From NCBI RefSeq assembly GCF_000421225.1, contig NZ_ATWL01000001.1, forward strand, positions 310,001 through 374,000: a stretch of 64,000 nt of DNA, given 5' to 3'. Position numbers and translations under genes: made by a program. Positions 3,683 through 50,270 of this stretch are shown one piece after another. The notes below the pieces were generated by a model. It was not told the DNA's origin. It did not search any database and saw only the letters and a program-made list of their open reading frames with translations. This DNA comes from Ruania albidiflava DSM 18029 (lineage in GTDB: Bacteria > Actinomycetota > Actinomycetes > Actinomycetales > Beutenbergiaceae). Position 1 is the stretch's first letter; each line of letters opens with the position of its first letter.

Positions 3683-4732
<1,050 letters not shown>

Positions 4733-14162: not shown

Positions 14163-14459
14163 ATGAGCACCTTCGCCGTCGAGTACACCTACGATGCCGA
14201 CCGCAGCGAGGAGGCCGACCAGGTCCGGCCGGAGCACCGCGCGTTCCTGCGCGACCTGCTCGACCAGGGCCGGCTGCTCGCCTCCGGCCCGTGGGTCGGT
14301 GCGGCGCCCGGTGCGCTGCTGCTGGTCGTGGCCGACGACACCGCGGCCGTCGAGAGCCTGCTCGACGCCGACCCGTTCCACCGCGAGGGGCTGATCACCC
14401 GCCGCACCGTCCGCCGGTGGAACCCGGTGATCGGGCCGTTCACGGCCGACGCCGGCTAG
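14163..14459 (+). CDS. YciI family protein
   Basis: 98-residue single-domain protein with the YCII fold pattern: an N-terminal strand FAVEYTYD, RPEHRAFLRDLLDQGRLLASGP (His24 region) and DPFHREGLITRRTVRRW near the C-terminus. The conserved His and Asp form a proposed active site, but the reaction is unknown for most members. The start follows a TACCCT -10 box. Its TAG stop and that of the convergent terC gene share the tetranucleotide CTAG (14456-14459), so the two genes overlap tail to tail by 4 nt. Confidence 0.82.
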   Translation: MSTFAVEYTYDADRSEEADQVRPEHRAFLRDLLDQGRLLASGPWVGAAPGALLLVVADDTAAVESLLDADPFHREGLITRRTVRRWNPVIGPFTADAG

Positions 14460-15424
14460 TCCCGCGAACGCCGGCCCACGGTCAGCGACAGGACCGTGGT
14501 GATCGCCAGCACGCCGATGATCACGCCGAGGGACATCAGCGTCCCCGGTTCCGGGATGGCCTCCCAGGGCTCGCCGCCGTTGATGAACGGGAGCTCGTTG
14601 GTGTGCAGCGCATGGATCACCAGCTTGGCACCGATGAACGCCAGGATCGCGGCCAGCCCGTAGTGCAGGTAGACCAACCGGTCCAGCAGCCCGTCGATGA
14701 GGAAGTACAGCTGCAGCAGCCCGAGCAGGGAGAACGCGTTCGCTGCGAACACCAGGAACGGATCCTGGGTGAGCCCGAAGATCGCTGGGATCGAGTCCAC
14801 GGCGAAGAGCACGTCGGCGCTGCCGATCGCGATGATCACCACCATCATCGGGGTCACGTGCCACCGGCCGGCCTGCTTGTGCAGCAACCGGTCGCCGACG
14901 AAGTCCTCGGTGGTCGGGAACAGCCGCCGCGCGACCCGGACCGCCACGTTCTCCTCGGCGCCCTCGTCGTCCTTCGTCCGTAGCTGGCTGGCCGCCGTGT
15001 ACAGCAGGAACGCGCCGAACAGGTAGAACACTGCGCTGAACTGGTTGATCGCCGCCGCGCCGACGGCGATGAACGCTGCCCGCAGCACCAACGCGATGAC
15101 GATGCCGATCAGCAGCACCTTCTGCTGGTACTCCCGCGGCACGCGGAAGCTGCTGAAGATGAGCACGAACACGAACAGGTTGTCCACGGACAGGGACTTC
15201 TCGGTGATGTACCCGGCGAAGTACTGCACGCCGAGGTCCTGACCGCCGGTCACCCAGACGGCCACGCCGAACAGCAGAGCGACCACGACGTAGGCCAGCG
15301 ACCACAGCCCGGCCTCGCGCAGCGAGGGGGCGTGCGCCTTGCGCGCGTGGCCGAAGAAGTCGATCGCGAGCAGCACCACGATCACGCCGATCGTGGCGGC
15401 CCAGGCCCAGGCGGGAACATCCAT
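14456..15424 (-). CDS. TerC family membrane protein (Alx/MntX-like), copy 1
   Basis: 322-residue polytopic membrane protein with about nine hydrophobic segments. TerC-family landmarks are the acidic helix motifs DFFGHARKAH (residue 24 onward), SLSVDNLFVFVLIF and the repeat AIGSADVLFAVDSIPAIFGLTQDP. Several members are manganese exporters, and here the gene lies behind a yybP-ykoY manganese riboswitch, which supports Mn2+ efflux or supply to exported metalloproteins. ATG at 15424, GGAGGT ribosome-binding site with 7-nt spacing, sequestered in the riboswitch expression platform. About 65% similar by eye to copy 2 directly upstream. Confidence 0.93.
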   Translation of the reverse strand: MDVPAWAWAATIGVIVVLLAIDFFGHARKAHAPSLREAGLWSLAYVVVALLFGVAVWVTGGQDLGVQYFAGYITEKSLSVDNLFVFVLIFSSFRVPREYQQKVLLIGIVIALVLRAAFIAVGAAAINQFSAVFYLFGAFLLYTAASQLRTKDDEGAEENVAVRVARRLFPTTEDFVGDRLLHKQAGRWHVTPMMVVIIAIGSADVLFAVDSIPAIFGLTQDPFLVFAANAFSLLGLLQLYFLIDGLLDRLVYLHYGLAAILAFIGAKLVIHALHTNELPFINGGEPWEAIPEPGTLMSLGVIIGVLAITTVLSLTVGRRSRD

Positions 15425-15426
15425 CA

Positions 15427-15553
15427 GGAGACCTCCGGTGAGAGCAGATGACACCGGAGGTCTCCCCCGCCCGGGAACCGGGCCGCAGGCGCCGAGCCCG
15501 CACCGTACCGGGCTGAGATGACGGCGTCCGCGTCGATGGGGTACTCCCCTCCA
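15427..15553 (-). ncRNA. yybP-ykoY (Mn2+) riboswitch of terC copy 1
   Basis: Reading on the minus strand, a 5' GGAGG (15552-15548) is followed directly by GGAGTA (15547-15542), and at the 3' end GAGA (15464-15461) is followed by CCTCC (15460-15456). GGAGG and CCTCC form P1, as in the yybP-ykoY aptamer consensus. The same CCTCC is also part of a perfect 14-bp inverted repeat (15427-15440 and 15452-15465) whose other arm holds the ribosome-binding GGAGG, so aptamer folding and ribosome-site masking exclude each other. A TAGACT -10 box lies at 15561-15566, overlapping the stop codon of terC copy 2. Confidence 0.85.
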
Positions 15554-15563
15554 GGCGATGAGT

Positions 15564-16580
15564 CTAGCGGTGCAGGCTCCGTTCCGGGGCCTCGGCGGAG
15601 GCGGCAGCACCGGCAGCCCGCTTCTTGCCGAAGGTCAGCGAGGTGACCGTGGTGACCAGGAGGATGCCGACGATCGCGACCAGGGACACGACCGTCGTCG
15701 GCTCCGGGATGACCTCCCACGGCTGGCCGCCGTTGATGAAGCCCAGCTCGTTCTCGTGCAGCGCGTGCAGCACGAGCTTGCTGCCGATGAACGCCAGGAT
15801 CCCGGCCAGTCCGTAGTTCAGGTAGACCAGCTTGTCCAGCAGCCCGTCGATGACGAAGAACATCTGCCGCAGCCCCATCAGGGAGAAGGCGTTGGCGGCG
15901 AAGATGAGGAAGACCTCTTGGGTGAGTCCGAAGATCGCCGGGATGGAGTCCACGGCGAACAGCAGGTCCGCGCTGCCGATGGCGATCATCACGATCAGCA
16001 TCGGGGTCACGTGCCGCCGCCCGTCCACCCGCGTGGTGAGGTGGTCGTCGACGTACCCCTCCGTGGTCGGGAACACCTTTCGGGTGAGCCGCACCGCCAG
16101 GTTGTCGCCGGAGCCTTCCTCGTCGTCGTTGCTCTTCAGCTGGGTGATGGCGGTGTAGATCAGGAATGCGCCGAAGATGTAGAACACGAAGGAGAAGTGG
16201 TTCACCACCGTGGCGCCGGCCAGGATGAACACCGTGCGCAGCGCCAAGGCGATGATGATGCCGACCAGCAGCACCTTCTGCTGGTACTTCCGGGGCACCC
16301 GGAAGCTGGTCATGATCAGCACGAACACGAACAGGTTGTCCACGGAGAGGGAGAGCTCCGTGATGTACCCGGAGTAGTACTGGACGGCGAAGTCCCCGCC
16401 CCACTCCCAGAGCACGACCAGCCCGAACAGCAACGCCACGCTGACGTAGGAGACCGACCAGAGGGAGGCTTCTTTCAGCCCCGGTTCATGGGCCTTGCGG
16501 ATGTGGCCGAAGAAGTCGATCGACAACATCGTGACGATGAGTGCGACCAGCAGGATCCATGCCCAGGGTTCGACGTGCAA
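15564..16580 (-). CDS. TerC family membrane protein (Alx/MntX-like), copy 2
   Basis: 338 residues, close paralogue of the neighbouring copy: DFFGHIRKAHEPG, SLSVDNLFVFVLIM, and AIGSADLLFAVDSIPAIFGL are all kept. The start is a TTG at 16580 (MHVEPWAWIL), fixed by a GGAGG ribosome-binding site exactly 7 nt upstream, the same geometry as copy 1; no ATG gives a full-length protein. The weak start codon may lower its output relative to copy 1. The C-terminus carries an extra alanine-rich tail. Control is by its own manganese riboswitch. Confidence 0.92.
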   Translation of the reverse strand: MHVEPWAWILLVALIVTMLSIDFFGHIRKAHEPGLKEASLWSVSYVSVALLFGLVVLWEWGGDFAVQYYSGYITELSLSVDNLFVFVLIMTSFRVPRKYQQKVLLVGIIIALALRTVFILAGATVVNHFSFVFYIFGAFLIYTAITQLKSNDDEEGSGDNLAVRLTRKVFPTTEGYVDDHLTTRVDGRRHVTPMLIVMIAIGSADLLFAVDSIPAIFGLTQEVFLIFAANAFSLMGLRQMFFVIDGLLDKLVYLNYGLAGILAFIGSKLVLHALHENELGFINGGQPWEVIPEPTTVVSLVAIVGILLVTTVTSLTFGKKRAAGAAASAEAPERSLHR

Positions 16581-16585
16581 CTACT

Positions 16586-16711
16586 GACCTCCGGTGAGTA
16601 CGACGGACACCGGAGGTCTCCCCCACCCGGGCACCGGGCCGATGGCACCGAGCCTGCTGCTGGGCAGACTGTGGTGACGACACCATCGCTTGTGGGGTAC
16701 TCCCCTCCACT
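16586..16711 (-). ncRNA. yybP-ykoY (Mn2+) riboswitch of terC copy 2
   Basis: Same architecture as the downstream copy: 5' GGAGG (16708-16704) plus GGAGTA (16703-16698), and 3' GAGA plus CCTCC (16616-16612) completing P1. An 11-bp inverted repeat (16586-16596 and 16608-16618, 11-nt loop) pairs that CCTCC segment with the ribosome-binding GGAGG, predicting translation on when manganese stabilises P1. A TAGACT -10 box at 16719-16724 begins 7 nt from the expected transcript start. Confidence 0.85.
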
Positions 16712-16763
16712 GCGGGCGAGTCTAGCCCTGATCCGCACCTGTCGCGGGTCGGGCTGGTCACAC

Positions 16764-48600: not shown

Positions 48601-50270
48601 TCGGGGGTGTCCTCGAGCAGGTTCGGTTCCGGCCCGATCGCGCCCGCCAGGGAGGTGACCAGCTCCTCCCGGATCGCGTCCAGCGGCGGGTTCGTCACCT
48701 GGGCGAACACCTGGCTGAAGTAGTCGAACAGCAGCCGGGGCCGGGAGGACAGCACCGCCACCGGGCTGTCCGTGCCCATCGATCCGAGCGCCTCGGTGCC
48801 GGTCGCTGCCAGCGGCCGGAGCAGGATGCGCAGCTCCTCCTCGGTGTAGCCGAAGGTCTGCTGGCGGCGCAGCACCGAGGACCGGGAGTGGGCCACGTGC
48901 TCGCGCTCGGGCAGGTCTTCCAGGCGGACCAGGTGCTGCTCCAGCCACTGGTCGTAGGGGTGGGCAGCGGCCAGGGAGTCCTTGATCTCCTCGTCGGCGA
49001 CCAGGCGTCCTTCGGCGGTGTCCACCAGGAACATCCGTCCAGGTGCCAGGCGCCCCTTCTGCACCACGCTGGCCGGGTCCGCCTGGAGCACACCGGATTC
49101 GCTGGCCAGCACCACCAGGCCGTCCTCGGTGACCCAGTAGCGACCGGGGCGCAGCCCGTTGCGGTCCAGCACCGCGCCGACGTAGCGGCCGTCGGTGAAG
49201 CACATCGCTGCCGGACCGTCCCACGGTTCCATGATGGTGGCGTTGTAGGAGTAGAACGCCTTGCGCGCCGGGTCCATGGTGGCGTGGTTCTCCCAGGCCT
49301 CCGGGATCATCATCAGCACCGCGTGCGGCAGCGACCGGCCGCCCAGGTGCAGGAGCTCGAGCACCTCGTCGAAGCTGGCGGAGTCGCTCTGCGTCTCGTC
49401 GCAGATGGGCAGCAGGTCCGCCACGTCTCCGAGCAGCCCGGAGGCCAGTGTGCCCTGCCGGGCGGCCATCCAGTTGCGGTTCCCGCGGACGGTGTTGATC
49501 TCGCCGTTGTGCGCAACGAGGTGGAACGGGTGCGCGAGCGGCCAGGAGGGAAAGGTGTTCGTGGAGAACCGGGAGTGCACCAGGGCCAGCTCGGTGGCCA
49601 GCGCCGGGTGGGACAGGTCGGTGAAGAACGGTTCCAGCTGTCCGGTGGTGAGCATGCCCTTGTACACCAGGGTGCGCGCGGACAGCGACGCAGCGTAGAC
49701 GCCCAGGGCGTGCTCAGCGCGCTTGCGCACCCGGTAGCAGCGCCGGTCCAGGTCGATGCCGGCCAGCGCGCGGTCGGGGGCGGCGAGCACCACCTGCCGG
49801 AAGGTGGGCATGCAGGACCGGGCGGCGGGGCCGACCAGGCCGGCGTCGGTGGGCACGTCCCGCCAGGTGAGCACCTGCAGGTCCTCCTCGGCGGCGATCT
49901 CCTCGATCCGGCTCGCGGCGCGGCCGGCCTCGTCGGGTGCGGCGGGGAGGAAGAAGGTGCCGACGGCGTAGTGGCCCGGTGCGGGTAGGTCCACCTCGAG
50001 CACCTCACGGAAGAAGGCGTCCGGCACCTGCAGCAGGATGCCGGCACCGTCCCCGGAGCTTGCCTCGGCGCCGACGGCGCCGCGGTGGTCCAGGTTCGCC
50101 AGTGCGGCCAGCGCCGCGTCCACGATGTCTCGACCGGGCCTCCTGCGGAGCGTCGCGACGAAGGCCACGCCGCAGGCGTCATGGTCCCGGACCGGGTCGT
50201 ACAGCCCCTGCTTCCGGGGCGCTGCCCTGAAGGCGGTGTAGGTCGTGCGCACCTGGGCGGGTTGGTTCAT
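45687..50270 (-). CDS. gltB: glutamate synthase large subunit
   Basis: 1527 residues, alpha subunit of GOGAT, making two glutamates from glutamine and 2-oxoglutarate. N-terminal glutamine amidotransferase with nucleophile Cys33 ([12 protein letters not shown]) after a 32-residue propeptide; central domain; FMN/synthase domain with [12 protein letters not shown] and the 3Fe-4S cysteines in [19 protein letters not shown]-terminal GXGXG beta-helix (GTMLGNAV..., [34 protein letters not shown]). ATG at 50270 follows GAGGATGA. A 182-nt region separates it from lgt and contains its likely promoter and a 16-nt palindrome (50290-50305). Confidence 0.98.

Follow-up and report, generated by a model that had tools for sequence, protein, structure and literature searches.

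The window, which is the whole 64-kb stretch of DNA analyzed, carries two TerC-family genes on its minus strand, arranged head to tail, each with its leader on the same strand. The upstream gene, terC copy 2 (15564..16580), encodes 338 amino acids and begins with TTG, and the downstream gene, terC copy 1 (14459..15424), encodes 322 amino acids, begins with ATG, and contains the SLSVDN and AVDSIPA motifs. Both products match Pfam TerC (PF03741; 172.7 bits for copy 1 and 168.8 bits for copy 2, with a cutoff of 27.8 bits), and with copy 1 as the query these two are the only TerC matches in the 4.17-Mb genome. An earlier note, made from the sequence, had described tandem TerC-family genes that each have their own yybP-ykoY-type leader, and the Pfam matches together with the covariance models R1 and R2 described below bear this out.

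Leader 1 lies in the 139-nt intergenic region between terC copy 2 and terC copy 1 (15425..15563). The predicted Mn riboswitch aptamers, as delimited by R1 and R2, occupy positions 15456..15552 (aptamer 1, with P1, P1.1, P2, L3, P3, and P4) and 16612..16708 (aptamer 2), all on the minus strand. The order of elements is the same in both leaders: a -10-like box, TAGACT (15561..15566 in leader 1 and 16719..16724 in leader 2; recognized from the sequence and from the TANNNT count across leaders given below); the P1 5' strand GGAGG, as placed by the covariation alignment (15548..15552 and 16704..16708); L1 GGAGTA, as placed by motif conservation (15542..15547 and 16698..16703); CCCC; a branched region with the L3 motif CGTCA (15519..15523 and, by motif conservation, 16675..16679); GGGG; GAGA; the switch strand CCTCC, which can serve as the P1 3' strand or as an anti-Shine-Dalgarno strand (15456..15460 and 16612..16616); and the Shine-Dalgarno (SD) sequence GGAGG (15432..15436 and 16588..16592), 7 nt 5' of the ATG (15424) of copy 1 or the TTG (16580) of copy 2. 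The TAGACT of leader 1 overlaps the TAG stop codon of terC copy 2.

The distances from GGAGG to CCTCC (92 nt), from CCTCC to the SD (24 nt), and from the SD to the start codon (7 nt) are equal in the two copies. The earlier note had spoken of identical spacing and of the same TAGACT box; this is correct for the box itself and for the spacings from P1 to the start codon, but the stretch between the box and P1 measures 8 nt in copy 1, compared with 10 nt in copy 2. The observation that the aptamer cores and start codons have diverged also stands: the two 97-nt aptamers are identical at 72 of 97 positions, and one gene starts with ATG and the other with TTG. The sequence GGAGGGGAGTANNCC occurs at only two places in the 64-kb window, which are the two leaders (0.11 chance matches expected with ≤1 mismatch). 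Since 1,156 nt separate the starts of the two aptamers and each precedes a gene of its own, we rejected the description "tandem riboswitch" in the sense of two adjacent aptamers serving one gene. A review states, in the portion consulted, that tandem Mn2+ riboswitches are lacking (PMC9481103), and the present pair leaves that statement unchanged.

A search of the window against Rfam at the family cutoffs gave no match. At a loose threshold, the yybP-ykoY model RF00080 matched copy 2 at 10.1 bits (E = 4.3; the cutoff is 45 bits) and gave no match to copy 1. The same model at its cutoff found nothing in 20 related loci; a loose scan of 13 related loci gave matches in 2 (16.4 and 14.5 bits), and the terC leaders of two related genomes (G004 and G006) scored 29 bits. 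The two validated Escherichia coli leaders of the family served as positive controls. RF00080 of Rfam 15 gives no match to the alx leader (L137:1377-1499), even in a 321-base scan, and mntP scores 41.6 bits, which is below the cutoff. The model as displayed leaves P1 and P1.1 unpaired. The earlier note had held that the lack of a significant match to this model would count against its reading, and no match above the cutoff was found, but the model also misses alx and places mntP below the cutoff. Since alx goes unreported, mntP falls short, and P1 is unpaired in the model, the failure of RF00080 says little about the present leaders, and we ascribe the missing match to the model rather than to the absence of a riboswitch.

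We therefore turned to models built from the leaders themselves. We fetched 98 TerC loci, and a motif pattern requiring GRGGAGTA, CGTCA, and AGACC recognized 73 leaders in 70 of them (stricter earlier patterns had given 3 and then 33 leaders). The figure of 70 loci is a lower bound, because the pattern missed leaders at L048, L083, and L089 that model R2 finds; the R2 rescan covered 25 loci, 14 of them among the 28 loci with no pattern match. Model R1 was built from alignment A2, which holds 60 nonredundant leaders, all of them actinobacterial and all of them TerC leaders. Alignment A3, fitted to R1, holds 30 leaders that were not used for R1 (the 29 best-scoring R1 loci and alx), and model R2 was built from A3 without the window sequences; R2 is thus independent of the window sequences though not of the shape of R1, with which its 30 leaders were found. 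R1 scores 84.3 bits for aptamer 1 and 96.3 bits for aptamer 2, both of which are in its training set, and these are the only two places that it finds in this genome at an E value of ≤1. R2 scores 76.3 bits (E = 8.3e-19) for aptamer 1 and 82.8 bits (E = 1.2e-20) for aptamer 2. The next-best R2 match in the window, at 49872-49959 (E = 0.056), is antisense to a large gene, which from its appearance we take to be glutamate synthase, and we regard this match as chance rather than as a third leader. Two further R2 matches in the genome have E values of 1.09 and 1.42.

The structure shared by these leaders is supported by covariation in both alignments. Of its 32 pairs, 24 show changes on both sides in A2, with 90.7% of cells paired, and again 24 do so in A3, with 93.9% of cells paired. 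Not one of 500 shuffles of either alignment reached any of five covariation measures, and controls in which partners were slid out of register were paired at 39 to 53% (A2) and at most 51% (A3); the shuffles ignore the relatedness of the leaders, and the slid versions account for it. The clearest case is the outermost pair of P1.1, which is C-G in 29 leaders of A2 and U-A in 28. The covariation in A2 and A3 and the folds of the aptamers support a P1/P1.1 leg and a P2/P3 leg that meet at a junction from which another hairpin branches off. When the aptamers are folded by themselves, the result matches the consensus structure, with inner P2 paired differently in copy 2. Because the A2 leaders were chosen by the GRGGAGTA/CGTCA/AGACC pattern (GGAGTA is invariant there, at 60 of 60, through this selection), we quote motif conservation from A3, in which the L1 motif GGAGTA is present in 28 of 30 leaders, GGGGAGTA (also in L1) in 27 of 30, AGACC in 29 of 30, and the L3 motif CGTCA in all 30, alx included.

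R1, whose training leaders are all actinobacterial, aligns with the E. coli alx leader from the first to the last model position (57.9 bits; E = 8.8e-13), and it finds mntP at the position reported by RF00080 (18.9 bits; E = 0.006). Both are published Mn riboswitches (PMC9603457, as far as its consulted text goes). L1, L3, P1, P1.1, P2, P3, and P4 of alx all align with R1, and the gene downstream of alx is annotated as an Mn exporter and is a TerC homologue (PMC13274385, consulted in part); the alx leader differs in its GC content (46%, compared with 70 to 76% here) and in its longer P4 insert. The six RF00080 matches in Actinomycetota are the best-scoring places of R1 in those loci (32.2 down to 12.5 bits), of which three are significant for R1 (E = 2.7e-6, 1.4e-4, and 0.005) and three are not (E = 0.08, 0.19, and 0.27). 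RF00080 itself shares with the present pair the weak match to copy 2 and differs in that this match is below the cutoff and in that P1 and P1.1 are unpaired in the displayed model. Two further systems resemble the pair by description. The leader of Corynebacterium glutamicum terC (cg2157) is likewise upstream of terC in a member of the Actinomycetota and is listed, in the consulted part of PMC3890552, as an RF00080 prediction marked observed, with 49.13 bits in the Rfam of that time. Bacillus subtilis meeY (ykoY) is a TerC gene under an Mn riboswitch, and the consulted portion of its description mentions no duplicated unit (PMC10550928), unlike the arrangement found here.

A plain SD-sequestering hairpin, with no ligand-binding aptamer, might account for part of this pattern, since in each copy the SD hairpin runs for about 11 bp without a mismatch. 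Such a hairpin requires neither the helix-by-helix covariation of the 97 nt upstream nor their match to alx, and we consider this explanation extremely improbable. The homology with alx and the conserved structure indicate instead that both leaders belong to the yybP-ykoY family, the ligand of which is Mn (PMC6754395, in the part consulted). The same portion of that report describes an invariable Mn-contacting adenosine in L3 (A41 in Lactococcus lactis and A48 in Xanthomonas oryzae). In our own reading of the register, the counterpart of this adenosine would be the final A of CGTCA (in aptamer 1, the CGTCA at 15519..15523), and that of the L1 adenosine would be the A of GGGGAGTA. Both copies have the L1 sequence GGGGAGUA, which includes the conserved cross-helix adenosine. 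Both aptamers are predicted to bind Mn.

The genes behind the leaders point in the same direction. Among the 29 best-scoring R1 loci outside this genome (from the best 30 per search), the gene downstream is TerC at 18 (193 nt behind the leader at L128), a P-type cation ATPase at 8, an Na/Ca exchanger at 1, and an M50 peptidase at 1; the remaining leader is at a contig end. TerC, a P-type cation ATPase, or an exchanger is therefore found at 27 of these 29 loci, which is a statement of gene family and does not imply the metal carried. Six of the ATPases were assigned by Pfam (L111, L114, L115, L119, L131, and L133) and two by eye (L130 and L132). Since R1 was trained on TerC leaders only, the ATPase and exchanger targets point independently to metal homeostasis. 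TerC proteins of other bacteria are reported to act in Mn export or in the Mn loading of exoenzymes (PMC13274385 and PMC10550928, both in part), and a similar role for the two TerC proteins here seems likely to us. The M50 metalloprotease, which has a CBS domain, stands behind an R1-type leader of 59 bits (L135:1628-2824) and would be an unexpected target for an Mn switch.

The alx and mntP switches answer to pH as well as to Mn, according to the consulted part of PMC9603457, and of the two validated leaders compared, alx is closer to R1 than mntP is. The present leaders could thus be alx-like elements whose main signal is alkaline pH and for which Mn2+ is a cosignal. The conservation of the Mn-contact loop argues against this, as does the presence of P-type cation ATPases and an exchanger behind sister leaders, and we regard a mainly pH-responsive element as unlikely compared with an Mn riboswitch.

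The leaders also share an arrangement that would allow an Mn riboswitch to control translation. By a scripted count, all 5 pairs of P1 can form in 69 of 73 leaders, and the remaining 4 leaders lack one pair each. In 64 of the 73, the 3' strand of P1 also fits a site downstream, to which it is complementary at 8 or 9 of 9 positions (compared with 17% in shuffled downstream sequence), and this site usually contains GGAGG. Two combinations of the three strands are the commonest, GGAGG/CCTCC/GGAGG (34) and GAAGG/CCTTC/GGAGG (19), which indicates that the last strand is in most cases still a good SD, with a G-U pair tolerated. In further loci, the match is found in 18 of 28 (compared with 14% in shuffled sequence); since the other 10 lack a good SD-hairpin match, this platform is not universal, and other expression platforms probably exist in this leader class. 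At the present locus, the claim that CCTCC can pair either with the 5' GGAGG of the aptamer or with the GGAGG located 7 nt before the start codon, and that these pairings are mutually exclusive, is confirmed for both copies, and the exclusive P1 and SD pairings predict a translational ON switch, as the earlier note had proposed.

Neither leader has a T run after the SD hairpin, and we conclude from this that the hairpin is not an intrinsic terminator. The same riboswitch might nevertheless act mainly on transcription, through Rho or through attenuation inside terC, because this class acts at either level depending on the bacterium (PMC6754395, in its consulted part) and because the SD hairpin is very stable in ViennaRNA calculations. 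We think that transcription is improbable as the main output, given the lack of a T run behind the hairpin and the fit of the switch strand to a downstream site, usually with GGAGG, in 64 of 73 leaders. Under the translational reading, the energies call for care. ViennaRNA favors the SD-closed state over the P1 state: the difference is 4.1 and 6.0 kcal/mol for transcripts ending at the SD and 9.4 to 20 kcal/mol for longer transcripts. With P1 enforced, the SD is on average 23 to 58% unpaired; it is only partly free because it finds other partners. The pairing logic is clear, and the energy model taken by itself does not predict a balanced equilibrium switch; it is likely, we infer, that the order of folding during transcription decides the outcome.

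Based on the covariation, the kinship with alx, the gene context, and the exclusive pairings, we put at about 0.88 the probability that each leader is an Mn2+-sensing yybP-ykoY riboswitch that controls how the following TerC gene is translated. Of the 73 leaders, near-identical ones included, 61 have a TANNNT box at 12 to 19 nt before P1 (the mean in shuffled sequence is 1.9 and the maximum is 5), and the position of the box predicts a transcription start just before P1. In the mechanism that we propose, transcription would begin there, as the -10 box suggests. Without Mn2+, a hairpin of about 11 bp would hold CCTCC paired with the SD GGAGG, and translation would be low. Mn2+ would dock L1 (GGGGAGUA) on L3 (CGUCA) and so stabilize P1 (GGAGG/CCUCC), and the stabilized P1 would release the SD and allow TerC, presumably an Mn exporter or an Mn-loading membrane protein, to be made.

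The yybP-ykoY family is widespread and is linked to transporters of the tellurium resistance type (PMC3766115, in part), and its occurrence in Actinobacteria, before terC in C. glutamicum, has been published (PMC3890552 and PMC8164766, in the parts consulted). Among the matches listed from a literature library with few subscription papers, we found none on the GC-rich leader form or on the duplicated unit. At an E value of ≤0.001, R1 finds leaders in 49 of 59 near genomes (this genome included) and RF00080 in 3, one of which is a partial match of 35 nt; TerC is present in 58 of the 59. In the wider survey of Actinomycetota at the same threshold, R1 finds leaders in 44 of 196 genomes and RF00080 in 6 of 198, and the 6 genomes are not among the 44. 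The two genome sets being disjoint, the models see different branches of the class, and neither covers it alone. Above its cutoff, RF00080 finds 1 of 198 genomes of the phylum and none of the 59 near genomes. Control of Mn by riboswitch thus looks commoner in Actinomycetota than the Rfam model shows, and a better covariance model would correct the annotation of GC-rich genomes. The riboswitch family has long been known, and we consider this gap in the Rfam model to be a more useful result than the new pair. Three related genomes (G054, G039, and G055) have three or four leaders of the R1 type each. In Demequina, the TerC genes at L060-L066, L068, L071, L072, L075, and L091 have no leader by the pattern, and L060, L062, and L091 have none by model R2 either; leader control may have been lost or replaced there.

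In order to place the duplication, we made a quick tree (SH-aLRT support) from 124 of 149 TerC rows, with short rows and near-duplicates dropped; several long branches lie outside the genus. The two copies group, copy by copy, with both copies of G003 and G007, the two other members of the genus that have the pair (support of 99 and 99, joined at 89). Four other members are single copy in the tree, and a fifth, G006, is also single copy. This grouping places the duplication within the genus. Both leaders are kept in all three genomes with the pair. The leaders of G003 and G007 follow copy membership, with identities of 92 and 86% within copies and 77 to 80% between them. In this genome, leader 2 stands at the same distance from both copy types (84 to 85%), and leader 1 is an outlier (72 to 75% to the other five leaders). 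From the TerC tree and the paired leaders, we conclude that the sequences of both units derive from one duplication of leader and gene inside the genus, in agreement with the duplication suggested in the earlier note.

The further suggestion, that the copies were then tuned to different output or metal thresholds, is not supported. The L3 of leader 1 reads CGTCATCTC, which is absent from G003 and G007, and where copy 2 has its TTG start the aligned orthologues of both genomes have ATG. Since these differences are not found in G003 and G007, we rejected a duplication with conserved tuning, and any tuning of the two copies here is a guess from their sequences. Leader 1 also carries a single A-C mismatch in P2 and, in P3, a single unpaired G-G; its other changes in P2 and P3 are compensated. 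The CGTCATCTC letters occur in L3 of 1 of 30 other leaders (L131), which indicates that the change is tolerated in this riboswitch family.

A bolder reading, which we think unlikely, is that the GC-rich actinobacterial leaders form a distinct and largely uncatalogued branch of the Mn riboswitch and that the duplicated units in this genus act as a two-step Mn dosage circuit. If so, copy 2 would be a consensus sensor behind a weak TTG start, and copy 1, with its altered L3 and its P2 and P3 mismatches, would answer at a different Mn level. The duplicated unit offers a natural pair for asking whether copies of a riboswitch diverge in threshold.

Other TerC pairs were seen in the collection. In many relatives a second TerC paralogue, leaderless by the pattern, lies directly downstream of the first, as at L033 (3604 onward), L034-L046, L049, L055, and L087; these paralogues fall in a separate part of the tree and are perhaps read from the switched gene. 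Blastococcus has a separate tandem TerC pair with a leader for each gene (L052:2360-2465 and 3750-3849; also L054), which arose by a duplication of its own.
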